From positions 1 to 37,960 of the forward strand of contig JAUVYH010000007.1 of assembly GCA_030603165.1 (NCBI GenBank): a DNA stretch of 37,960 nt, written 5' to 3'. Under the pieces are notes generated by a model, which saw nothing but the letters and a program-made list of their open reading frames with translations, did not search any database and had not been told where the DNA came from. A program made the position numbers and the translations under genes. The DNA is from Fidelibacterota bacterium. Its GTDB lineage: Bacteria; Fidelibacterota; UBA2242. Positions 7,380 through 34,903 of the stretch are shown here, one piece after another (position 1 is the stretch's first letter; the number at the start of each line of letters is the position of its first letter).

Positions 7380-9371
7380 CTGAAAAAATCTCCTTTTATT
7401 TTAACAACTCTCTTTTGGATACTTGCCTTTCTTTCCTGTTCAAAAAGCCCCTTTTCACAGCAAAATCTTCTCATTCTGCGAACCGGAAATAATCGGCAGA
7501 TCAAGCGACTTATCACACAATTTTCCGGTTTTCAAAAACCCGGTGAACGATTCCGGCTTTGTCTGGCGGTTGCAAACAGTAGAGACAGCACAATTATTCC
7601 GGAGCTTGTCCCATTGACGGAAGATTCTTCCCCGCTCGTGCGTCTCGGCGCGGCGTTTGCGCTTGGTCAGTTGCGGTGCTCTGAATCTGTCAATATCTTA
7701 ACCCAAAGACTTGCTTCTGAATATGATCCCGATATCCGCCGACAAATTGTATTGTCCCTCGGACAGGTTGGAGATATATCAACACTTCGATTGCTTGACG
7801 AACAGTATCATGACCATATACCCGATGAGACATTATTCAAAGCATACGTGTATTTTTTCTCAAGAAATATTATTCAATCAGAATGTGTCGGATATTGTTG
7901 TGAATCCCTGTCTTCCAAGAATGCAAATAACAGACACATGGCAGCTGCTGCGCTTCAGAGAATCCGCAATTCCGAATTGCTCACTCCTTATGCTAAGTTG
8001 CTTATAGATGCAGCAAAAAACCACGATCCGGAAATTCGCCGAGCTGTTGCCAAAGTATTACGACCAATCACATTTTCAAAAAAAGACCAAATATATTCTG
8101 ATCTGTTAATCGACCCTGACTGGCGAATCCGTTATGAAAGCGTTTTGGCAATACCCGGTTTACAAGACAGGGAATCTTTATGGTTGGAGGCGTTAGACGA
8201 TTCAAACAACCATGTCGTTGCAGCTGCGCTGCAAAACGCCCCGGACAATATTGTATTAAATCAACATTTAATAAATAAGCTGACACAACTGTTTAAAAAT
8301 TCTTCCGAACATATCAGGGGCTCGATTGTTCAATTTACTACGCCTTTTCTTGATTCAAGCAATCAAGCGCCGGCGGATTCTTTTCCGGTTAACGAAACAC
8401 TTTTGCCCTATAAAATTGCCGGATTGAAAAATTCTCCCAACAGGCAATCTTTCGATTTTCTGCTTAATCTTCCAAAACATCGCAAAAAGACAATTGCCAC
8501 TCCGGCATACCTGGGGATTGTCAATATGCTGGATTCTCTAATTGCCAACAACACAATAACAATCGAGGAGTACAAAACAGTTCTGATCGATGGTTTAGCC
8601 GGCAATGATCCGGTTCAGGTATATCTCGCCGCAGACAAAATATCCGAAACGGATTTGAATATGACGGATATAGCGCCCTTTTTATACGAGTGTCTTAAAA
8701 AACATAATCAATATGCTTTTTTAGAAGCTTGTGTGGCTGCGCTCACGGCAATTGAAAAAATCCACCCTGATGACGCCGTTGACCATCTTAAACCTTTACT
8801 GAGCAGCAAACAAAAACAGATTCGCGACAAAAGCCGCCATATACTCACCGAAATTTATGGGGAGAATGCTATCGCTCCCTCTGATTATAATGATACTTTT
8901 GTATATTCTAGGTTGACAAAATTAAATCAATACGGTCTTAGCCCCAGGGTTGATATTCTTACAAACCGCGGAACGTTTGTAATTGAGTGCGATGGATTCT
9001 ATGCCCCTTATACTGTCACCGCTTTTCTGGAACGGATCGACTCGGGATTTTACGACGGGCTAATTTTTCACCGGGTAATCCCGAATTTTGTGGTGCAGGG
9101 AGGAGATCCCCGCGGTGATGGCTGGGGCGGTCCCAATTATCATCTTTTAACGGAAAAATCTCCCGTTGGATATGATGTCGGTTCAGTCGGAATGGCAAAT
9201 GCGGGAAATGATACCGAGGGTTCGCAATTTTTCATCACGACAACTCCCCAATATCACCTGGATTATAACTATACGCGTTTTGGACGTGTTGTTGAGGGAA
9301 TTGATGTAGTATTGAATATTGAGAAGGGCGATAAAATTCTGGCGGCGGATATCCGGCGACCGTCAAATTAA
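7380..9371 (+). CDS. Putative lipoprotein with HEAT repeats and C-terminal cyclophilin-type peptidyl-prolyl isomerase
   Basis: ORF track starts at internal TTG 7614. The frame is open upstream to 7374 and encodes (L)KKSPFILTTLFWILAFLSCSKSPF, a lipoprotein signal. C-terminus FYDGLIFHRVIPNFVVQGGDPRGDGWGG...GSVGMANAGNDTEGSQFFITTTPQYHLDYNYTRFGRVVEG is cyclophilin. Confidence 0.85.
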   Translation: MKKSPFILTTLFWILAFLSCSKSPFSQQNLLILRTGNNRQIKRLITQFSGFQKPGERFRLCLAVANSRDSTIIPELVPLTEDSSPLVRLGAAFALGQLRCSESVNILTQRLASEYDPDIRRQIVLSLGQVGDISTLRLLDEQYHDHIPDETLFKAYVYFFSRNIIQSECVGYCCESLSSKNANNRHMAAAALQRIRNSELLTPYAKLLIDAAKNHDPEIRRAVAKVLRPITFSKKDQIYSDLLIDPDWRIRYESVLAIPGLQDRESLWLEALDDSNNHVVAAALQNAPDNIVLNQHLINKLTQLFKNSSEHIRGSIVQFTTPFLDSSNQAPADSFPVNETLLPYKIAGLKNSPNRQSFDFLLNLPKHRKKTIATPAYLGIVNMLDSLIANNTITIEEYKTVLIDGLAGNDPVQVYLAADKISETDLNMTDIAPFLYECLKKHNQYAFLEACVAALTAIEKIHPDDAVDHLKPLLSSKQKQIRDKSRHILTEIYGENAIAPSDYNDTFVYSRLTKLNQYGLSPRVDILTNRGTFVIECDGFYAPYTVTAFLERIDSGFYDGLIFHRVIPNFVVQGGDPRGDGWGGPNYHLLTEKSPVGYDVGSVGMANAGNDTEGSQFFITTTPQYHLDYNYTRFGRVVEGIDVVLNIEKGDKILAADIRRPSN

Positions 9372-15357: not shown

Positions 15358-18300
15358 TTACCGCGCCACCACCAATGTTGTGACATATCCCACTGTCCGA
15401 TCGCTCATTGAATCTGTGGCGCTGCAGCGAACCACATACATACCTATTCGGGCTTTATTGCCATGCTTACTCGAACCGTCCCAGTAGATGGCTCCTTCGG
15501 AAGACGACATCAAATTCTTCGCCGGTTGATAAATCAGACGCCCCATCAAATCATATATTTCCATTGTAACCATGGCGCTCGGAAAAGGAAGTTGAAACAA
15601 TATTGCAACCTCATCATCGAAACCATCGCCATTGGGGGAAAAAGGATTTGGCTCTACTTTAATTCCCGGTTTTTTCCATTCCTTTGAAATGGCAACGCTG
15701 TTTACCCGTCCGGGGGTTCCGCCGTCGGGCGATGTGGACAGACGCCAATTATTTCGAAAATTTGGATTCGTATAAAAGACTCTTTCCATCGATGTGTTAT
15801 TAGAGATCAGCCAATCAGAATTATATCGCAAACTATCTATCGTTTTACCGGTAGGGTCTTTAAGCACGACACCGTCTTCAACATTATTCAAGGATGGAAA
15901 AGTATTTATAACACACGTGTTTTCCGGATGCGCGCCCGGAAAATTAAATATCGTAGAATCTGCCGCAAAAATAAAATAGCCCTGGGCAGACACAGACTTT
16001 TTCTCCATATTTTGCGCCGGTCTTCCAATATTTTCGTCACACAGCGCACATCCTTTCAGCGGCAAATTGTCCAAGCCGGGGTTGTAAACTTCAACATATT
16101 CAGAAATGGAATTGCTGCCGGTTTCAATATCAAGTGGGATTGCCATAAACTCTGACAGAAGCAACGCCCCCTCATCGAAGGACACTTTCAGAGTTATAAA
16201 AAGAGAATCGTTTGATGGATTCACATCTGTATCACTGTTCAACACCGTTACTATACGATGAAACCCCGATTTTAACGAACCAATTTGAACATCAAAAGTG
16301 TCCATAGATCCGGTTTGTATCGATCCTAATATTTCTGTTGCTATTGGTTGCCCGGCGCCGGTATCTTCGTCATAAATTATCAATGACGCAGAAGGAACGT
16401 TGTTTAGACCAACATTGGAAAACCAACACCTAATTGTAAATTCTGTTTCGTAACTGCCTGTTTCCGGAATTGCGACAACAGAATCCAAAGAAAGATCGTG
16501 AGTCGCCGGTGTTACTGAATTAACTAATCCCGGCGTCGCTCCATTAGGGGCGGTCGATAGAAACCATCCATCCGGTGAAAAGCTGGAATTTGCCGGAAGA
16601 GTTTTTTCCAGAGAAACGCCCTGTTTCAGCCCCCAGCTGTCGTCATACACCAGAGAGTCAATCGTTGCGCCGGTCAAATCTTTTAAAATAATTTTATCGG
16701 ATGTGTTATTAAGCCCGGGCCACTTTGGCGGCACAACAATCACCGCATCTGAAGGTGGAAAATAATCAAAATAGACACTGTCTTTCACCAGTACCAGGTA
16801 TTCTCCCGATGATACTATTGTGTTTTCTTTCAATGTAACGGCGCTTCGTTTGTTGGAAAGGCTCCATTTATATAAGTTAATGTCGGCGCTCCCCACGTTA
16901 ACAAATTCGACAAATTCTGTCTGTTCCGATGTGGGATATACTAAAAACTCATTCAATATTAACGAGCGAACCGGATAGGCGACTAACAAATTTGTATGGG
17001 CGACATTATCAGCTATCTGCTCATCTCCGCTCATCGCCACCATTGCAATATAGGAACACTTTCCGGATCTTTCGGAAAAGACTACTCCATCAATAACAAT
17101 CACAGAATCCGGGAGCAGTGGGGGCACGCTGTGAATGCTCCAGACAAGTTCGCCCGGGGCGGCATGAGAATCTTCATTACGATCATGAAATAATTCAAGG
17201 GAAAACGATTTTGATTCTTCGCAGCCCGTATTTTTTATCTCAATCTGAAAAGCGGCAGAAATAACCAGCGATACCGTTGAATCAACAAAGACAAAGCTGC
17301 CCGGAATTATGGAAAGATCGAGTTGGTATTTTAAGATTGAATTGATCGCTCCCGGCGTCGCCCCCGAAGTAGAAATAGAGCCGCCCCAATTATTTTCTCC
17401 CAAAGCCGGAGAGTTTGGGTCTTTTCGCTCAATTGTTATCCCGGCAGCTCCGCCCCAGCTCTGTTCAAAATAAATCTGCTCAACCGTGTGGCTGATCGCG
17501 TCACACAAAAACAACGAATCCGAAGAATTGTTTATGACGGGGAACTCGTCTGGAACAACCAGCATACCCGAAAAATCCGGATACGCCTGAAGAAAATCTT
17601 GTTTGTCCGCAACAACAATAAATTCCTGCGGCTCAATAAATAACGGTTGCGCTGATAATATGCGCCATTTACCATTCGCATCCCGGTAATTCCACTTGTT
17701 TAAATCTACCGGATAAGAAGACGGATTGAACAATTCAAACCATTCTGTCTCGCCTGTTTCCGGTGTGTACATTATTTCATTAATAACAATTGAATTTTCA
17801 GGATATCCAACGGCAAACAGACAACTATCCAGGTCGTTTTCAGTGAGTTCGTCCGGTTGACAAATAACAGATGCAAATAACTGATAAGCGCCGCCGCTTA
17901 TTGTTTCAATTATTTGGGATCCGGTGTATGTGTTTCCAGATTCAAGAGAATCCAATACGTCTATTGTTGATTCAAAAACAATATTAGAATCCAACATCGC
18001 CGCTTGCGATACAACCGTGAAGCGAACAGAATATTGATAAACGGTATTCATGCCGGTATTTTTTACACCGTAATTCATCTGTACCGGTTCGCCGTACATA
18101 GCGCACTGCGGCTGCGTTTCTATGTATTCCATTTCAAGATCGTTATTTTTTATCATCCAACTATTGCTCATACCCGGTGTTCCGCCCGTCTGATTATTCG
18201 AGAGCGCCCAATTATCCGAATTGTCTCCATCTATATATGGATTGATTCTTTCCAGGGTAACTCCCTGCTGATATCCCCATGTACTTGAATATTCCAGCGC

Positions 18301-21162
18301 GTCTATTCTTTTCCCGCACAAATCCCTAATGACAATGGAATCGCTGGTGTTATTTAACGTTGGAATTGAGTTCGTACATTGAATATAAACTCCGCCCACG
18401 TTCCAATAATCCAGTAATGTCGAATCCGAAGACAAAACAATATATGTCTCCGGAGGAATAAGAATATCTTTGTTTGTAATAACAACCCGGTTTGAATTGT
18501 CCGCGATCGTCCAGTGTATCATGTTAATTGTATCTTGCGAAACATTCAGCAATTCAATCCACTCGCCGCCCCAATCCGATTTTGGCACATACATAAATTC
18601 ATTTATAACAATTGCATTCTCCGGACAGCCAACGGCAAACAGACAACTATCCAGGTCGTTTTCGGGAAGTTCGTCTCCCTGACAAATAACAGATGCAAAG
18701 AGCTGATAAGCGCCGCCGTTTGGCGTTTCAATTATTTGGGATCCGGTGTATGTGCTTCCAGATTCAAGAGAATCCAATACGTCTATTGTTGATTCAAAAA
18801 CAATATGAGAATCCAACATCGCCGCTTGCGATACAACCGTGAAGCGAATAGAATATTGATAAACGGTATTCATGCCGGTATTTTTTATACCGTAATTCAT
18901 CTGTACCGGTTCACCGTGTATAACACACTGTGGTTGCGTCTCTATATAGTCCATTTCAAGGTCAATGTCTTTTATCATTCGGCTATTACGCGTACCCGGC
19001 GTCCCGCCCGACTGATCATTTGAGAGCGCCCAGTTGTCTGAGTTGTTTCCATCTATATACGGGTTGATTCTTTCCAGGGCAACTCCCTGCTGATATCCCC
19101 AGGTGCTCGAATACTCCAGCGCGTCTATTGGTTTTCCACACAAATCTCTTACGACAATGGAATCGCTGGTGTTATTTAATGTTGGAATTGAGCTTGTGCA
19201 TTGAATATAAATCCCGCCTACATTCCAATAATCCAACAAAGTTGAATCTGACGATAAAACAATATAGGTCTCCGGAGGAATGAGGATATCTTCATCTGTA
19301 ATAACAACCTGTTTTGAATTGTCCGAGATTGTCCAATGTATCATATTGACTGTATCTTGCGAAACATTCAGCAATTCAATCCACTCGCCGCCGTGGTCCG
19401 ATTTCGGCACATACATGAATTCATTAATAACAATACAACCGGCGCGGTAGGGAACTTTAATATCGAATAAAAACGTGTTGTTTCCCGGGTCGTCGTCCTC
19501 CGATACAATCGAGCCGATTATCAGATTTTTACCCGAATGGACATCGAGAATACTTGGATATATTACTACAGAATCTCCCGGCTCAACCGTCAATATATCT
19601 ACGTACAACACTTCGTTTTGTTGTAAAAGCGAATCCCGGTTGTTATCGACGCCCAAATAGAATTCGGCATTATTAATTATTTCACGACCTAAATTTTTAA
19701 TCGTTACATACAGATCTGCCGTTCCGCCGGCTCGCGGATTCGCGGCCCCGTCCAGCAGTCCGACACCGCTGACAGCCAGATCATAATCCTTTATGGCCAC
19801 ACTATTTTTGTATCCCGGTGTACCGCCAACAAGATTTTGGCATAATGCCCAGTTTTCAGACGTGTCGCCGCCCAGATAAGGATCGATCCGCTCAAGCGAT
19901 ACGCCTTGTTGATAACCCCAATTAGTTGAATATTTCAGTGAATCGATCACCTGGCCGCATAAATCTCTGACTACGATTGAATCTTCAGTGTTGTTCAACG
20001 TCGGCAGAGATTCTTCACAATGAACATATATTCCGCCCAGATCCCAATAATCCGTTATAGATTCATTAGAGGATAGAAGCACATATTCCGCAGGCGGGAT
20101 CATTATGTCTGTTGTTGTTATCTCAACCCGGGATGAATTATCGCAAATCTGCCAATTCGCAAGATTTACAGTGTCATTCGAAATATTCAGCAATTCAATC
20201 CACTCACCGCCAAAATCGCTTTTTGGTGCATACATAAATTCGTTGATAACAACGCTGCCGGAATGATAGGTTACTTGAAAATCAAATAAACCCGTGTTGT
20301 TTTCCGGATTATCGTCCTCTGCTGTAATTATGCCCAATAGCGTGTGTTTCCCGGATTTAACTTCGACCAAACTTGGATACAGAACAACCGAGTCGCCTGG
20401 CGATACAGTTATAATATCTACTGATACGACTTCGGTATTTTGAAGTATCGTGTCACGGTTCAGGTCGTCACCAAACTGAATTTCAGCATTGGAAATAGTC
20501 TCTCGCCCTAAATTCTTGATCTTAATTGAAAATTCTACCGTGCATCCGGGGTTTAGCTGAGAAGTTTCGTCTCGCCGGGCAATTTCCGCAATCGCCAAAT
20601 CAAAATCTTTCATGGCGATACTGTTTTCATACCCCGGCGTACCGTATAAACAAACTGCGTTTCCCCAGTTGGCAAGTCCGTCAGAGCCAAATATATCAAT
20701 TTTTTCTTCCGAATAACCTGCATCCTGATCAGGAGTTGTAATTGCAGAACTGAGAGTATCTCCGGATTCTGAAATAAGAAATAGATTGTTGAGCTCAGTG
20801 TTTAATAGTCCGAAAGAGCTACTCGTGATTGTAATTAATAAAGTCCCGTCCGGAATAAAATCATCGTAAGTATGAGATTCGTTATCAAGAATAAGAGCAT
20901 AAGAATTTGGGGAAAATGTAAGGTCAGAGTAGATATACTTTCCAATGATATTTTTTATAGAACCATTTATAATTAGAAGTGCTCCTTCTAAGGATATATC
21001 TGTTTCACCGTAATTAAATAATTCTATGAATTCATCATAAGAATCTGGTCCCTTAGCGTCAAACATTACCTCATTGATTGATATTGTCTGTCCGTCCAGC
21101 AGAATAACCTGGAAAAATAATAAGATTGCGAACAATATCTGGAAAAGTTTTTTTATATTCAC
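15358..21162 (-). CDS. Giant secreted protein with about seven lamin-tail domains (LTD), intervening CARDB/Ig-like segments and a C-terminal FlgD/CHU_C-like segment
   Basis: Seven LTD signatures (INEVMFDAKGPDSYDEFIELFN; INEFMYAPKSDFGGEWIELLN; INEFMYVPKSDHGGEWIELLN; INEFMYVPKSDWGGEWIELLN; INEIMYTPETGETEWFELFN; LNEFLVYPTSEQTEFVEFVN; LSEFMAIPLDIETGSNSISEYVEVYN); C-terminus VEPNPFSPNGDGFDDE...MEIYDLMGRLIYQ...YWDGSSKHGNKARIGMYVVRC. Confidence 0.9.
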   Translation of the reverse strand: MNIKKLFQILFAILLFFQVILLDGQTISINEVMFDAKGPDSYDEFIELFNYGETDISLEGALLIINGSIKNIIGKYIYSDLTFSPNSYALILDNESHTYDDFIPDGTLLITITSSSFGLLNTELNNLFLISESGDTLSSAITTPDQDAGYSEEKIDIFGSDGLANWGNAVCLYGTPGYENSIAMKDFDLAIAEIARRDETSQLNPGCTVEFSIKIKNLGRETISNAEIQFGDDLNRDTILQNTEVVSVDIITVSPGDSVVLYPSLVEVKSGKHTLLGIITAEDDNPENNTGLFDFQVTYHSGSVVINEFMYAPKSDFGGEWIELLNISNDTVNLANWQICDNSSRVEITTTDIMIPPAEYVLLSSNESITDYWDLGGIYVHCEESLPTLNNTEDSIVVRDLCGQVIDSLKYSTNWGYQQGVSLERIDPYLGGDTSENWALCQNLVGGTPGYKNSVAIKDYDLAVSGVGLLDGAANPRAGGTADLYVTIKNLGREIINNAEFYLGVDNNRDSLLQQNEVLYVDILTVEPGDSVVIYPSILDVHSGKNLIIGSIVSEDDDPGNNTFLFDIKVPYRAGCIVINEFMYVPKSDHGGEWIELLNVSQDTVNMIHWTISDNSKQVVITDEDILIPPETYIVLSSDSTLLDYWNVGGIYIQCTSSIPTLNNTSDSIVVRDLCGKPIDALEYSSTWGYQQGVALERINPYIDGNNSDNWALSNDQSGGTPGTRNSRMIKDIDLEMDYIETQPQCVIHGEPVQMNYGIKNTGMNTVYQYSIRFTVVSQAAMLDSHIVFESTIDVLDSLESGSTYTGSQIIETPNGGAYQLFASVICQGDELPENDLDSCLFAVGCPENAIVINEFMYVPKSDWGGEWIELLNVSQDTINMIHWTIADNSNRVVITNKDILIPPETYIVLSSDSTLLDYWNVGGVYIQCTNSIPTLNNTSDSIVIRDLCGKRIDALEYSSTWGYQQGVTLERINPYIDGDNSDNWALSNNQTGGTPGMSNSWMIKNNDLEMEYIETQPQCAMYGEPVQMNYGVKNTGMNTVYQYSVRFTVVSQAAMLDSNIVFESTIDVLDSLESGNTYTGSQIIETISGGAYQLFASVICQPDELTENDLDSCLFAVGYPENSIVINEIMYTPETGETEWFELFNPSSYPVDLNKWNYRDANGKWRILSAQPLFIEPQEFIVVADKQDFLQAYPDFSGMLVVPDEFPVINNSSDSLFLCDAISHTVEQIYFEQSWGGAAGITIERKDPNSPALGENNWGGSISTSGATPGAINSILKYQLDLSIIPGSFVFVDSTVSLVISAAFQIEIKNTGCEESKSFSLELFHDRNEDSHAAPGELVWSIHSVPPLLPDSVIVIDGVVFSERSGKCSYIAMVAMSGDEQIADNVAHTNLLVAYPVRSLILNEFLVYPTSEQTEFVEFVNVGSADINLYKWSLSNKRSAVTLKENTIVSSGEYLVLVKDSVYFDYFPPSDAVIVVPPKWPGLNNTSDKIILKDLTGATIDSLVYDDSWGLKQGVSLEKTLPANSSFSPDGWFLSTAPNGATPGLVNSVTPATHDLSLDSVVAIPETGSYETEFTIRCWFSNVGLNNVPSASLIIYDEDTGAGQPIATEILGSIQTGSMDTFDVQIGSLKSGFHRIVTVLNSDTDVNPSNDSLFITLKVSFDEGALLLSEFMAIPLDIETGSNSISEYVEVYNPGLDNLPLKGCALCDENIGRPAQNMEKKSVSAQGYFIFAADSTIFNFPGAHPENTCVINTFPSLNNVEDGVVLKDPTGKTIDSLRYNSDWLISNNTSMERVFYTNPNFRNNWRLSTSPDGGTPGRVNSVAISKEWKKPGIKVEPNPFSPNGDGFDDEVAILFQLPFPSAMVTMEIYDLMGRLIYQPAKNLMSSSEGAIYWDGSSKHGNKARIGMYVVRCSATDSMSDRTVGYVTTLVVAR
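17811..19436 (-). repeat. Two tandem near-identical ~822-bp coding repeats inside the LTD gene
   Basis: cggcaaacagacaactatccaggtcgttttc at 17811 and 18633, and gattctttccaggg at 18244 and 19066, both 822 bp apart (274 codons, in frame). Confidence 0.9.
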
Positions 21163-21300: not shown

Positions 21301-23097
21301 ATGCTACCCATGAACAATAATGACCAGCAAAGTAATATGAAAAACAGACGCTTCAAAACGATTTTCTACCTTGCCGCCGCGATAGCCGCCCTCTGTGTAG
21401 GCTCCAATATGAGCTTTGCCCAGGCGCCCGGAAAGTACACCAGAAAATCCATTTCGTATGTAAACGCTCTTCTGTCAACAAAGGATTTCAAACTACCTTC
21501 TTCCCAACAGAACTACCTGCTGGATGCTATTCACACCGGCATACGAATCGCACGATTTGATTATAACCCTCTCCCGGAAAACACCCATAGCGCTTTTAGA
21601 AAGCGGCTTTCTCAACGCAACTTTGTTTCGGCGGATGATATAGAATCCCTGATAAATAAAACGATTATACCCGAAATTATTAAAATCCTGGACATCAACA
21701 AGGAAATGCGGGCGCAATCGCTTATCAGCGAAACCCAACGCAATTCATTTATTGCCTTAAAAGCAAAAGAGATCGGAATAACGGCTCAGCAATTGGAACA
21801 GGTGATGAATTCATCTTATTTGTATATTCCCTTTATCGATAAATATCGTGTGAAGAAAGATAGCGATAAAGAAAAGGTCAGCGTACATATTGGCGGTGGT
21901 TTACTCTGGTATCATATTATCGCCGGAGAGAAACCTCATGTTGAGAAGTTCGCCAAAATATCATCCGAAGGGATGTCGGGTGCTGATTCAGAAGAAAAGT
22001 ATTCTATTGACAGTGAAAGGGTCAGCGCCGATGAATACGCATTCCGGAATGCTGCCCATACACTGGCGATGAACCTGGAAATTAAAACCCGCGAACTGGA
22101 TATGTTCAAATTGAAAGCCCCCATCGCCAATATTCAAAGACGTAAAATCTGGTTTCCGCTGGGAAAGGCAGAGGGAATTAAACTTGACGACCCGTTCTTT
22201 GTTGGCGAATGGATCGAAAAATCAAATGGTAAAATCCGCTTCCAAAAGTCCGGATTTGTGCGCGTGAGCACAGTTTTAGACAACCGGAGTACCCCGGGAC
22301 AACTTTCGCAGGCCATCGCTATCAAAAAGGGCGATTGGGCAAAAGGAATGATGGTTGTGGAACACCCGAGACTTGGAATTGACATTGCAATAAAACCAAG
22401 ATGGTTTACGATGAATATAGATGAAGGCATAGTATTTAACGGCGAGAAAGGATTTGTTATTTATTTCGATGACTATCAAGGCGGAGCTATAGGTTTTGAT
22501 ATAGACCTGCACTGGAATATTGCATCGCTTACAAAAAAACGTCAGAGCTTTTTAGTGTTCGGAGGTTCCGCCGGGCTTGTTCCGGTAAAAAGCAGCATTT
22601 TCAACTTTGCTTTCTGGAACAAGGACTGGACACCTCTTGATTTGATTCCTACAGAGAGCTGGGTTGCTGGTATTTATTACGGTCATGTCGGATATTTAAA
22701 AAAATTCTATCTTGGTCCTTTTGCCGTACATGGTGAAGGATTGTTTGGCGTGCAGACTCTTAGTATCTGGGACTATAAAAGCGGTGATGATTATGATGGT
22801 GAAACGATTACTATATCTAATAAAACAGTCGGGCTGCGAGTAAATCTTGGTCTTGAGTATGCCGTCAATATTGATTGGAATATCGGGATGTTCGCTGGTT
22901 TTAATGTGTTCCCGCCCATTGATTGGTGGACAGTAAAATATGATGAAAAAGAAGTCGATATGGAAAATATGTCAGGCTGGGCGGCGCCTAAAATTTATAG
23001 CATTGGACCTACATTCGGATTTTACATACACTTTTCGCCACCCACTTTACCGTTTAATCCAGCCGCGGTTGTACAAAACCAATTGAAAAACTTATAG
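21301..23097 (+). CDS. Exported protein with possible C-terminal beta-barrel, first gene of the LPP20-containing cluster
   Basis: Signal peptide FKTIFYLAAAIAALCVGSNMSFAQ; segment KIWFPLGKAEGIKLDDPFFVGEWI...GFVRVSTVLDN; aromatic/beta-rich C-terminus. Confidence 0.7.
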   Translation: MLPMNNNDQQSNMKNRRFKTIFYLAAAIAALCVGSNMSFAQAPGKYTRKSISYVNALLSTKDFKLPSSQQNYLLDAIHTGIRIARFDYNPLPENTHSAFRKRLSQRNFVSADDIESLINKTIIPEIIKILDINKEMRAQSLISETQRNSFIALKAKEIGITAQQLEQVMNSSYLYIPFIDKYRVKKDSDKEKVSVHIGGGLLWYHIIAGEKPHVEKFAKISSEGMSGADSEEKYSIDSERVSADEYAFRNAAHTLAMNLEIKTRELDMFKLKAPIANIQRRKIWFPLGKAEGIKLDDPFFVGEWIEKSNGKIRFQKSGFVRVSTVLDNRSTPGQLSQAIAIKKGDWAKGMMVVEHPRLGIDIAIKPRWFTMNIDEGIVFNGEKGFVIYFDDYQGGAIGFDIDLHWNIASLTKKRQSFLVFGGSAGLVPVKSSIFNFAFWNKDWTPLDLIPTESWVAGIYYGHVGYLKKFYLGPFAVHGEGLFGVQTLSIWDYKSGDDYDGETITISNKTVGLRVNLGLEYAVNIDWNIGMFAGFNVFPPIDWWTVKYDEKEVDMENMSGWAAPKIYSIGPTFGFYIHFSPPTLPFNPAAVVQNQLKNL

Positions 23098-23104
23098 GAC
23101 ATTA

Positions 23105-24373
23105 ATGATGAGACTATTTAGGCATACATTTCTTATAACAATTTTAATTACATCGATTATCTCTGCAACGAATCTCCCGCGGTCACGAATAGCAACCCAG
23201 CTGGAAAGCACCTCTCCTTCAGAAGTCATGATTCGCGCAACCGGTTTTGGTATTGACAAAAAACACTGGAAACCAAAAGCAAAGACGCTTGATAAAAGCG
23301 CCAACAATGACGCTAAAAAGACAGCCGTCTGGTTTGTTCTCTTCGGAGGAAGCGATCCGCTTTTACAGACCGACAATGAAAAACAAGCATTTGAAAAAAT
23401 CCAGGAAGATTTTTTCAAAATGGACAATGTTCGCCAGTATATTTCCTGGGAAGCCGACTATTACGACAAACGCCTCAAGGTAGATGGCGGCAAAATGCTG
23501 AAAGTGGAAAAAACCTTCAAGATAAATAAAAGCCTGCTCGAAGCAGAACTGGTAAAACGTTCTATCATCACAAAATCAGCATCGATCTCTGAATCAGTCG
23601 GCATGCCTACAATTATGGTAATCCCGGAGACAACCGGAGATATTGCCCCGCTGGAGTTACTCAAAACAGATCCGGACATTAAGAAGAGCGCCGAAGTTAT
23701 TGAATCCTATCTGACCGCGAAAAAATACACGGTGATTGTTCCCGAACAGCAACAGGTGTTGCAGGAATTAACAGCTACTCAATATGCCCTGGGCGGAGCA
23801 GCCGAAGATTACAGTTATCTTCTGGCGCTTTCCATTGGCAGTGATGTTTATATTTCCTATAATATTTCTGTTGAATCACGAAACATCGGATCGTCCCTGG
23901 TGAAGAAAGCCATTGTCGGCTGCCGTGCTTATGAAACAACCACCGGGCGACTGCTGGGAACCGAAACCGGCTATAGCCATGAACGAGTTGCGCCAAACCC
24001 GGTATTAATCGAAGAGGCAATGAACGATGCGATTAATAATGTCCTGAGTAGAATCACAAATTACTGGAAATCTGATATCAAACAGGGAATTCAGTATAAA
24101 ATAATTGTTAGCGTCGGTAGCTCTTTCGACGCCGACCAGGCTGAGGAAATAATATTTTCATTGAGCGATGTTTTCAAGGACATCGCATCGACTCTCAAAG
24201 AAAACACCATTGCCGATTATACATATGACGTATTGCTCTGGGTGAAGCCGGAACAGTATTCAACCGCCACGGATATATATCGCGCGATAAAACGTTCCTA
24301 TCGCGGTTCCGGTATGGTCAAAAGGATTTCAATTTCCAGAAAATTAATTTTATTATCCATAGAAGAAGAATAG
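23105..24373 (+). CDS. Exported hypothetical protein, possibly DUF6175-like
   Basis: Signal-like N-terminus; AVWFVLFGGSDPLLQTDNEKQAFEKIQEDFF and MPTIMVIPE blocks; 8-nt spacing from the upstream gene. Family name is from memory only. Confidence 0.6.
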   Translation: MMRLFRHTFLITILITSIISATNLPRSRIATQLESTSPSEVMIRATGFGIDKKHWKPKAKTLDKSANNDAKKTAVWFVLFGGSDPLLQTDNEKQAFEKIQEDFFKMDNVRQYISWEADYYDKRLKVDGGKMLKVEKTFKINKSLLEAELVKRSIITKSASISESVGMPTIMVIPETTGDIAPLELLKTDPDIKKSAEVIESYLTAKKYTVIVPEQQQVLQELTATQYALGGAAEDYSYLLALSIGSDVYISYNISVESRNIGSSLVKKAIVGCRAYETTTGRLLGTETGYSHERVAPNPVLIEEAMNDAINNVLSRITNYWKSDIKQGIQYKIIVSVGSSFDADQAEEIIFSLSDVFKDIASTLKENTIADYTYDVLLWVKPEQYSTATDIYRAIKRSYRGSGMVKRISISRKLILLSIEEE

Positions 24374-24382
24374 GAGGCGGGC

Positions 24383-25741
24383 GTGCGGAGAAACATCCGG
24401 ATAATTACTCTTTTATTTATCAGCATAAATATACTTACATTCGCACAGGTGCCTAAATGGGCAACGACAAACAGTCATAAAAAATATCCATCATCAAAAT
24501 ACCTGCTTGGCGTAGGAATATCCAAGGGCAAGACCGAAGCGATCGAGCTTGCCAGAGCAGACGTCGCCAAACAAATTCAGGTAAAGATCGAATCAGAGTT
24601 GGAAACGATTGAACAGGAAATCAGCACGGGGGATCGGACTAAATTTAGTTCGGAAATCATCTCAAAAACCAAGTCCGCCGTTTCTGAAACTATTGCCGGA
24701 ATTGAAATTAAAGAAACCAAATTCATAAAGGGCAAATATTACATCCTCGCAATATTGAATAAGCAAAACTATCTTGCCGGAATTGAACAGGAAATGGATA
24801 ATACAGTCGCCGAAACCGAAAAATATATACAGAACGCCAGAAAATTAGCCGGTAATGGAAACATTTTCAACGCTCTCGACAGCTACATTTCCGCTCAAAA
24901 CATCATTCCGGAATTTTATGTAAAGCGGGGGCTATATACTGCATTGACCGGCAGAAATTACGGCGGAGCCAATACTGTTTCAGCCGCTGACATTCTCTCT
25001 GAAATCCGGTCGGTGCTCTCGGGAATTGATATAAAAATCATAAGCGGCAATAACCAGTCTGCGCCTATCGGGACATCTTTAAAAGAGCCTGTTATTGCAA
25101 AAGTATTTTTTGTGGACGATGGCGGATCGGAGATCGGCATCAAGTGGTATCCGGTAATTATCAAATATGCCAACGGCGAAACCCTTTCCAGGCTGGGTTC
25201 CGGAGAAGACGGGAAAATAAAGGTCAGTGTTTTAGCTACACCAACAGGAGCTTCTTCACAGCGGGGGTCTGTGATCTTTACTCTCGGGCTCAGCAATCTA
25301 CCCGAAATGTTCAGAGCTGATCTGTCTAAAATACAAACATCTATTGTCTATGATGTTTTAACTATCGATATCGCATTCTCGGTCCGCATTGTAAACTCTT
25401 CCGGTGAACCGCATCAAAATTTAGCAGAGCGTGTAAGCGCCTGGATAAATGAGAATGGTTTTCAAACCGACCAATCGGCAAATATGATCATAGCCGGCAA
25501 AACGTCCATAACCAACGAAAAGGTCATTAGCACTCCAGCCGGTAAACAATATTTCGTCGAAGTTGAAATCCAGCTAACCCTCATTAATACCGATTCGAAT
25601 AAACAATTAGCGTCGGTATCCGCAAAAGGTAAGGGTCTTGCCATTGGTTCAAAAGAATCGGCTTTTGAAAAAGCGTGTAACAACATAAATGTATCAAAAT
25701 CAAAATTTGCCGCCTTTTTACAAAGTGCAGATAATAGATAA
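24383..25741 (+). CDS. LPP20-like domain protein with additional C-terminal domains
   Basis: VPKWATTNSHKKYPSSKYLLGVGISKGKTEAIELARADVAKQIQVKIESE...ISKTKSAVSETIAGIEIKETKFIKGKYYILAILNKQ; GTG start 9 nt after the upstream gene. Confidence 0.75.
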   Translation: MRRNIRIITLLFISINILTFAQVPKWATTNSHKKYPSSKYLLGVGISKGKTEAIELARADVAKQIQVKIESELETIEQEISTGDRTKFSSEIISKTKSAVSETIAGIEIKETKFIKGKYYILAILNKQNYLAGIEQEMDNTVAETEKYIQNARKLAGNGNIFNALDSYISAQNIIPEFYVKRGLYTALTGRNYGGANTVSAADILSEIRSVLSGIDIKIISGNNQSAPIGTSLKEPVIAKVFFVDDGGSEIGIKWYPVIIKYANGETLSRLGSGEDGKIKVSVLATPTGASSQRGSVIFTLGLSNLPEMFRADLSKIQTSIVYDVLTIDIAFSVRIVNSSGEPHQNLAERVSAWINENGFQTDQSANMIIAGKTSITNEKVISTPAGKQYFVEVEIQLTLINTDSNKQLASVSAKGKGLAIGSKESAFEKACNNINVSKSKFAAFLQSADNR

Positions 25742-25791
25742 AAAGTGTATATTACGAATGAAAGAGAAATTAAAACAAAAGGAGAGGAGTT

Positions 25792-26343
25792 ATGAAGAAA
25801 GTTCTAACCTTAGCAATGTTGATTCCATTGGCATTGATGCTTGTAGATTGCGGAGGTCCGCCGAAAGCTAAGATGCAGGATATTCCTGAGTGGTATCTGA
25901 ATTCTCCACAAGCAGAAGATGTAATCTATGAAGCCGGCGACGCCGCCAAGATGAGTATGGCTCTTGCAAAGGAAGCCGCCGATTCTCGTGCAAGAGACGG
26001 AATCGCACGGGCTATTGAGGTGAAAGTCTCCAACATGTTGAAAAACTTCATGCAGCAAAGTGGAATGGGAGATGATGCTGAAGCGATTGAATTTACATCG
26101 TCTGTTAGCAAGCAAGTGGCTAATACGGTACTTAGCGGTTGTCGTATTACCAAACGGGAAATGAAAACCAAGGGCGCCACATTTCATGCGTATTCCCTGG
26201 CGGAATACAACTTGAATTCATTAATTCGGGAAACACTGAACCAGGCTAAAAAACAGAAGTCTCTTTATAATGAGGCTAAAGCTAATCTGAGCTTTGATGA
26301 TCTTGAGAAAGAAATCGGGAAATTGGAAGCTGTAGAGGATTAA
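25792..26343 (+). CDS. LPP20-family lipoprotein-like protein
   Basis: Signal with MLVDCGG; DIPEWYLNSPQAEDVIYEAGDAAKMSMALAKEAADSRARDGIARAIEVKV; preceded by ggagagg RBS. Confidence 0.8.
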   Translation: MKKVLTLAMLIPLALMLVDCGGPPKAKMQDIPEWYLNSPQAEDVIYEAGDAAKMSMALAKEAADSRARDGIARAIEVKVSNMLKNFMQQSGMGDDAEAIEFTSSVSKQVANTVLSGCRITKREMKTKGATFHAYSLAEYNLNSLIRETLNQAKKQKSLYNEAKANLSFDDLEKEIGKLEAVED

Positions 26344-26383
26344 CAATAAAATTCTTAAGCCTGTCCGGCAACTGAGACTTGAG

Positions 26384-26428
26384 CAAACCCGTTTCTGTCC
26401 CGATATATATCTGGGCTAAACGGGTTTG
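26384..26428. other. Intergenic long inverted repeat / stem-loop
   Basis: caaacccgttt (26384-26394) and aaacgggtttg (26418-26428) are perfect 11-bp inverted repeats; the loop can itself pair (ccc gata..tatc t ggg). Confidence 0.7.
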
Positions 26429-26496
26429 GCTTTCGCTGAGCAGCCTATTCATTTCCAGATTCATATTTAAACTAACCGCGTTTTGAAAGCATCAAT

Positions 26497-27282
26497 ATGA
26501 AAAGAACAAGTATTGTAATTCTTGCAATAGTTTTGTTTCAATTTTGTGGACATTTCCCTATAGGGGAGCTTTCAGAGGCTTTATGCCAGACGTTAATCCC
26601 TGCGTGGTTTGAGGAAATACCAAAATCCCCTGCCGGGATAATGTTATCTGTAGGGTATTGTGGAAAATACCAGGACAAAAATCTCGCCAGACAGGCAGCA
26701 ATTAATCACGCCCTGATAATTATGGCTAAGCAGGAGCAGATACGCCTGATATTTGAAGTGGAAGAATTTGCAGATGGAAGGTTAAGACTTTTAAATCCTA
26801 CTTTTGAGCAGTTTTACGAGGAATCAATTCTGAGCCGGATTATGCAGGATTATAAAGTACTTGATTCATTATCTACGGAAGACGGTTACTTTGTTTTATT
26901 ATCTCATCCATCCAGCGATCGATTTTCAGTAAGGTCAACCGGAGGAAAATCTTGGGGATCTCGACCCAATTGGACGAAAGAACTGCCCGGATCGAAGGAT
27001 TTTGTCTATGGCATTGGACTGGTTGGAAAATACTCTTCCTGGGTCAGGGCGTGGAAAGACGCCGATGAGTATGCGCGTTTTGATCTGGGGAAAAATATAG
27101 AAATCGAAGCAGAATCGATTCATGCTGTTAAAAGAGATGATAGATTTACAATAGAATCTAAAATCTTGCGACAGTCTTATGATATAACTCTCAAAAACTC
27201 TATTATTGTTGCCAGATGGTACGATGCAAAACGGGATATCTATTATTCGCTGTGTCGAATGCAAAAGCCCACTTCTCCCTGA
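26497..27282 (+). CDS. Exported protein with two tandem LPP20-like segments
   Basis: PAWFEEIPKSPAGIMLSVGYCGKYQDKNLARQAAINHALIIMA and PNWTKELPGSKDFVYGIGLVGKYSSWVRAWKDADEYARFDLGKNI. Confidence 0.65.
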   Translation: MKRTSIVILAIVLFQFCGHFPIGELSEALCQTLIPAWFEEIPKSPAGIMLSVGYCGKYQDKNLARQAAINHALIIMAKQEQIRLIFEVEEFADGRLRLLNPTFEQFYEESILSRIMQDYKVLDSLSTEDGYFVLLSHPSSDRFSVRSTGGKSWGSRPNWTKELPGSKDFVYGIGLVGKYSSWVRAWKDADEYARFDLGKNIEIEAESIHAVKRDDRFTIESKILRQSYDITLKNSIIVARWYDAKRDIYYSLCRMQKPTSP

Positions 27283-27443: not shown

Positions 27444-28103
27444 ATGAAAAACACCGACATATTCGATTACCGTTTTTACTACAAAAGATATCTACCTCAC
27501 ATTCAGCCGGTTGACGCGGTTCTGTTTGTTACCTATTCCATAAAATTTGAGTATCCCAAAAGCTTTTATGAAAACTTAAAAAGAAAAAAAGAAGAATTTT
27601 TTAAATCTCTTAAGCATATTCCAAAAGAAGATCGAAAAGAAAAAATCAACAATTTCAATAAAATACAGTTTGACATTACTGATAATTTCATTGCTAAATT
27701 CACAAAATCACCAAAATGGCTAAATAATTCTCAGATTGCTGACATTATAAAAAACAGTCTGTTTTTCAAGCACGATAAAGAATATAATCTGATTTGCTAT
27801 TGCATAATGCCGAACCATGTTCATATTTTAATTAAACCGCTTCTTAAAACTAAAGACAAACCCTATTCAATAGCAGGTATTATGAAGAATCATAAAAGTT
27901 TCACTGCTATTGAATCGAATAAAATTTTAAAAAGAAATGGGCAATTCTGGCATCGCGGTTATTATGATCACTACATTAGAGATGAGAATGAATTTTATAA
28001 CGTTATTCGTTATATTCTGAATAATCCGGTTAAAGCAGGATTAGTTGAAAAGTATGAAGATTGGGGATATTACTGGGTAAATGAAGAAGTATTGCAACTA
28101 TAA
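27444..28103 (+). CDS. REP-associated tyrosine transposase (RAYT, Y1/HUH superfamily)
   Basis: YCIMPNHVHILIKP (HUH), GQFWHRGYYDHYIRDENEFYNVIRYILNNPVKAGLVEKYEDWGYYW. Confidence 0.92.
   Translation: MKNTDIFDYRFYYKRYLPHIQPVDAVLFVTYSIKFEYPKSFYENLKRKKEEFFKSLKHIPKEDRKEKINNFNKIQFDITDNFIAKFTKSPKWLNNSQIADIIKNSLFFKHDKEYNLICYCIMPNHVHILIKPLLKTKDKPYSIAGIMKNHKSFTAIESNKILKRNGQFWHRGYYDHYIRDENEFYNVIRYILNNPVKAGLVEKYEDWGYYWVNEEVLQL

Positions 28104-32700: not shown

Positions 32701-34903
<2,203 letters not shown>

Follow-up and report, generated by a model that had tools for sequence, protein, structure and literature searches.

Most of what is known about proteins of the LPP20, FlgP/FlgT, and CsgG types comes from flagella and curli. 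FlgP and FlgT are SHS2-fold proteins that build rings, and a ring-forming beta-hairpin insert has been described for the SHS2 module of FlgP (PMC12222027). Helicobacter pylori Lpp20 has an SHS2-type fold in common with FlgP and FlgT (PMC12222027, PMC11756786), and FlgP interacts with HP1456 and HP1454 of the same species (PMC11756786). In the PelBC system, a ring of the lipoprotein PelC sits on the outer-membrane barrel of PelB (PMC12141448). Here we describe a cluster of five genes, termed A to E, at positions 21301-27282 of a 37,960-nucleotide stretch of DNA (the window) from a Fidelibacterota bacterium (GenBank assembly GCA_030603165.1, contig JAUVYH010000007.1, positions 1 to 37,960 of the forward strand). 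The cluster combines a candidate outer-membrane barrel protein (A) with a DUF6175 protein (B) and three LPP20 proteins (C, D, and E), and we consider it about an even call that the five proteins form an assembly of the CsgG/PelC/FlgT-LPP20 type, namely a periplasmic ring or export complex that is anchored to the outer membrane and is not part of a flagellum.

Conservation of the five-gene cluster

The host genome (G000), of which the window forms contig 218, measures 3.3 Mb and is ~92% complete. All five genes lie on the plus strand, namely A (21301-23097, 598 aa), B (23105-24373, 422 aa, starting after a gap of 7 bases), C (24383-25741, 452 aa, with a GTG start and 9 bases downstream of B), D (25792-26343, 183 aa, 50 bases downstream of C), and E (26497-27282, 261 aa, separated from D by 153 bases). 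The initial annotation, made from the sequence alone, had described five codirectional genes with signal-like N termini, and we confirmed both the coordinates and strand and the presence of a hydrophobic N-terminal export signal segment in each protein; none of them contains a second strongly hydrophobic stretch. The family profile of A begins at an internal ATG (21337), which may be the true start instead of 21301. Comparison with the nearest relative, G001 of the same genus, gave ratios of nonsynonymous to synonymous substitution rates of ~0.13 for B and ~0.23 for C, and these low values indicate real genes under purifying selection. Simple scans returned 22 candidate promoters (15.8 expected) and 11 candidate terminators (5.9 expected), excesses too small to be decisive.

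Eleven further genomes of the family and order (G003, G004, G006-G011, G017, G018, and G020) keep A-B-C-D-E intact and in this order; most of the remaining loci of these groups are interrupted by contig ends. The flanks of the cluster vary: the gyrase genes found 3' of it in the window follow it in only some relatives, and a TerB/DnaJ gene switches side in G018, so the cluster is kept as a unit amid changing surroundings. In G016, A sits by itself in the interior of a 424-kb contig, and the intact unit B-C-D-E lies in the interior of another. G028 carries every part on three large contigs, with A on C3, B-C on C9, and D-E on C2. The split of A from B-E in G019 probably reflects a break in the assembly, since both pieces end at contig ends, and it was not counted as a separation; G002, where a divergent A adjoins a copy of the lamin-tail gene and B-C-D-E lie on a different contig, is ambiguous for the same reason. 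Divergent additional copies of A occur at loci L055, L057, and L058, with a tandem arrangement in G028. In distant families, identity is low and the genes are reordered, for example as D-E-x-A-B-C (G063 and G165), as D..A-B-C (G142), or as A-x-D-B, C lying on the following contig (G147); A-B-C was also found in distant-family genomes G035, G052, G067, G081, and G090, and in family f17 a gene for a FecR-domain protein (L121:5232-6041) lies between an E-like gene and A. The five-gene order is mainly a feature of one order of the phylum, with a wider core of A-B-C that often has D nearby.

The distribution of A and B was followed in the same 199 phylum genomes. A was detected in 33 genomes and B in 30, all of them within the 33 that carry A, an overlap with a chance probability of ~1.6e-32 by genome and ~5e-16 by genus, both calculated without regard to relatedness. 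It is of note that a family member that is 96% complete (G012) yielded neither A, B, nor E, nor any LPP20 hit, which looks like joint loss of the cluster. Homologs of the 598-aa and 422-aa proteins thus co-occur with LPP20 genes elsewhere in the phylum.

Predicted architecture of the encoded proteins

Protein A has no Pfam, NCBIfam, or PHROGs family and no match by sequence among solved structures. Behind its signal peptide lies a conserved periplasmic alpha/beta region (residues ~50-268), followed by a beta-rich region (~277-350) with a conserved GFVR motif and by a putative barrel (~360-578). The AlphaFold2 model, built from a shallow alignment of six sequences, has a mean predicted local distance difference test score (pLDDT) of 64.6; it shows a helical N-terminal region and then three long strands and a helix up to residue 268, a beta-rich but poorly modeled stretch of low confidence at 267-358, and ~8 long strands at 360-578. 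Foldseek matched this model with a probability of 1.0 to the outer-membrane barrels OmpT, OmpW, NspA, and OmpA. A distant ortholog matches OMP_b-brl below threshold; A itself has no Pfam barrel family. With moderate confidence, then, the C-terminal part of A (360-578) is predicted to be an outer-membrane beta-barrel of ~8 strands.

Protein B belongs to DUF6175 (PF19672; E = 1.1e-8, 35 bits against a curated cut-off of 23), a Pfam family with no function assigned. Its AlphaFold2 model (mean pLDDT 65.4) has an N-terminal region with a beta-alpha-beta-beta order, SHS2-like by eye, followed by more alpha/beta domains. The two best matches of the model in the Protein Data Bank were an LPHT-ring chain (E = 8e-4) and FlgT (E = 1.3e-3), and further matches included CsgG, PelBC/PelC, GNA1162, and LptE. 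At the level of fold class, the models point to a periplasmic fold of the FlgT/CsgG/PelC type for B. This likeness is one of fold only, as B has no sequence match to CsgG (PF03783), nor does any of A to E at E <= 1; no lipobox was noticed in B, and a sequence search of B against solved structures gave noise only. A genome-contig scan with B returned close relatives only, the nearest named ones being Candidatus Neomarinimicrobiota metagenome-assembled genomes, and a search of plasmids gave no match.

The remaining three proteins carry the LPP20 modules. Protein C consists of a signal peptide, an LPP20 domain at residues 24-124 (PF02169; E = 9.9e-14, 52.0 bits against a curated cut-off of 25.9), and additional C-terminal domains without family; it is the sole cluster protein with a relative among solved structures by sequence, the LPP20-family protein 4kzs (E = 2.5e-6). 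Protein D is a lipoprotein with the lipobox LMLVDC-GG, the cysteine of which is invariant across 13 aligned sequences, an LPP20 domain, and a conserved C-terminal tail; the window copy of this domain scores under the cut-off (21.8 versus 25.9 bits, E = 2.5e-4), whereas its orthologs score over it. Protein E, which is exported and has no Pfam, NCBIfam, or PHROGs family, comprises two LPP20-like halves (~33-140 and ~153-256) recognized by profile-profile comparison, and a distant ortholog of E matches LPP20 (PF02169). Against solved structures, the sequence of E gave no match and that of D noise only. Profile-profile comparison relates the LPP20 domains of C and D and the two halves of E to one another (E = 2e-5 to 1e-8), so the cluster contains four LPP20 modules in three proteins; every other domain pair within the cluster, including A or B against the LPP20 modules, gave noise, with no sequence relation.

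These results bear out the protein assignments of the initial annotation, which had proposed an exported A with a possible C-terminal barrel, an exported DUF6175-like B, an LPP20 protein with extra C-terminal domains (C), a small LPP20 lipoprotein-like protein (D), and a protein with two LPP20-like segments (E). Unrelated cytoplasmic functions, which it had named as an outcome that would speak against an envelope system, are not what the models of A and B suggest, given the predicted barrel of the one and the predicted periplasmic fold of the other.

Neighboring genes and related LPP20 loci

Divergent from A lies a gene on the minus strand (15358-21162) for a 1,934-aa surface protein with seven lamin-tail domains, a CARDB domain, and a CHU_C type IX secretion signal. 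A CHU_C/lamin-tail gene stands divergent beside A in 14 other loci, including that of G016, where B-E are elsewhere, and that of one divergent A copy of G002; it is absent at two order loci with upstream sequence (G020 and G021) and at the distant-family loci. The CHU_C protein offers the best hint of a client, though it may be no more than a neighbor. On the other side, an IS200-like (Y1) transposase gene (27444-28103, plus strand) follows directly 3' of E. Elsewhere in the window are a gene for HEAT repeats fused to a cyclophilin-type peptidyl-prolyl isomerase (7614-9371, plus strand) and that for GyrB (32701-34536, minus strand), the listed start of which is probably internal, because its match to the family models does not begin until model position 21-30.

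Related LPP20 genes are found in other contexts across the phylum. For example, neither A nor B is present in the sister family f5, of which G029 (L139:1653-7385) carries in a row a CsgG gene (E = 7.7e-22), a C-like LPP20 gene, a gene for a small protein, an E-like gene with two matching segments, and a D-like gene, and at loci L137, L138, and L140 a C-like LPP20 gene comes after a CsgG gene. Such sets of LPP20 genes therefore also travel with true CsgG. In families f14/f15 (L141-L143), a C-like LPP20 gene lies in a row with genes whose products resemble, by eye, thioredoxin-fold and DsbD-type proteins, together with a D-like gene in L142 and L143. In G142 (L126:2330-3493), a gene for a lytic transglycosylase (SLT, MltC-like) follows an LPP20 gene.

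Discussion

The linkage and co-occurrence of the five genes support the suggestion, already made in the initial annotation, of a dedicated envelope system, and from them we infer a physical complex and its function. In the arrangement that we favor, A would span the outer membrane as a small beta-barrel with a large periplasmic part, B would provide a FlgT/CsgG-like periplasmic body, and C, D, and E would contribute the four LPP20 (SHS2-type) modules, with D probably tethered to the outer membrane by its lipid. By analogy with PelC on PelB, with CsgG, and with FlgP/FlgT, the soluble and lipidated parts could form a ring or disk beneath the outer membrane around A, and such a ring or disk might form or reinforce a site of export or display. 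Several observations weigh against this arrangement. For the structural matches of B, the TM-scores are low (0.15-0.20 over the query) and the E-values are ~1e-3, so that only the local fold class (FlgT/CsgG/PelC-type) is taken as supported, and the models of both A and B derive from 6-7 sequences, with a mean pLDDT of ~65 and a predicted template modeling score of ~0.4. Beyond the order, E is a weak match, lies apart, or is missing, and three genomes have A with no B detected, one at a contig end (G043) and two with a divergent A (G065 and G134).

An accessory of a flagellum or pilus, such as a disk of the FlgO/FlgP/FlgT type, would also be in keeping with the LPP20 (SHS2) modules and with a FlgT-like fold in B, and FliF is somewhat commoner in A-bearing genomes (12/33) than in the others (26/166; Fisher P = 0.013, uncorrected for relatedness), with one secretin gene present in the host genome. 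However, FliF is found neither in the host nor in 20 further genomes with A, among them several with a completeness of 90% or more, which indicates that the module is not dependent on a flagellum, and neither the FlgT nor the FlgO Pfam family appears among the hits of A to E up to E = 1. As most genomes with A lack FliF, we rejected a flagellar module, and an accessory role of this kind, largely refuted for flagella, appears highly improbable. In agreement with the initial annotation, which saw neither flagellar nor curli genes at the locus, curlin repeats were found in none of 26 genomes (the host and 25 relatives; the Escherichia coli control was positive), and CsgG hits across the host genome were numerous but partial and weak. 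The divergent CHU_C gene raises the idea that the cluster has an accessory role in type IX secretion (by the T9SS), helping to export, anchor, or display surface proteins such as the 1,934-aa protein; the recurrence of this neighbor and the presence of SprA in the host would fit. SprA is nevertheless found in 185/199 phylum genomes as compared with 33/199 for A, which led us to reject a core T9SS role and shows that the cluster is not a general T9SS part, and the CHU_C neighbor is not constant, so we regard the accessory role as unlikely.

The cluster might instead encode envelope-homeostasis or peptidoglycan-linked lipoproteins of the LpoB or TolB type, with neither ring nor channel. The CsgG protein heading the sister set also matches LpoB, small lipoproteins (GNA1162 and LptE) are among the structural matches of B, and an LPP20 gene lies beside a lytic transglycosylase in one distant genome; yet A, the most constant partner, has a predicted membrane barrel, and the best structural matches of B are ring-forming proteins, which together make this explanation quite improbable. 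That the five genes are unrelated same-strand neighbors brought together by chance is scarcely credible: the 153-base gap between D and E would permit separate transcription of E, but the conserved order, the relocation of B-C-D-E as a unit, the restriction of B to A-bearing genomes, and the joint absence in G012 all but refute it. An outer-membrane-anchored ring or export complex accordingly remains our preferred interpretation. A more specific form of it, a flagellum-independent ring or disk organelle of Neomarinimicrobiota in which FlgT/FlgP-type modules surround a dedicated barrel and serve the export of surface proteins, is in our judgment rather unlikely; if true, flagellar disks and the A-E complex would represent distinct uses of a single ancient kit for building outer-membrane rings. 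A conserved ring or export complex in bacteria with no flagella or curli detected would extend outer-membrane ring building into a wider kit, with its own barrel protein, and would provide the first functional context for DUF6175 and for the 598-aa family as well as an added system for a largely uncultured phylum.

Comparison with known systems

The components of the cluster are of known kinds, and we found no description in the searched literature of their combination with A, of their conservation without detected flagella, or of the link to DUF6175; the searches for DUF6175, for the LPP20 family by name, and for secretion in Neomarinimicrobiota returned nothing, with no mention of DUF6175. 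The FlgT/FlgP rings of flagella (H ring, T ring, and basal disk) resemble the cluster in that FlgT is among the closest structural matches of the model of B and C, D, and E carry LPP20 modules, whereas the cluster occurs without FliF in the host and in most other A-bearing genomes and shows no FlgT or FlgO Pfam match. We know of no barrel protein resembling A in the flagellar rings. The H. pylori Lpp20 operon (HP1454 and HP1456) likewise encodes several exported proteins of the same fold, and C matches 4kzs, whereas the available portion of the report on it names no A- or B-like partner and gives flagellar interaction partners (PMC11756786). PelBC offers the precedent of an outer-membrane barrel with a periplasmic lipoprotein ring (PMC12141448) and is among the structural matches of B; on the other hand, the predicted barrel of A has ~8 strands, and no exopolysaccharide synthesis family was found among the scanned genes of the window. 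The CsgG curli channel and CsgG lipoprotein operons differ from the cluster in that B has neither a CsgG sequence match nor a noticed lipobox and no curlin repeats were found, whereas the model of B matches CsgG and the sister family combines CsgG with C-, E-, and D-like genes. B, with its predicted CsgG/FlgT-like fold, may therefore take the place of CsgG in the A-E cluster.

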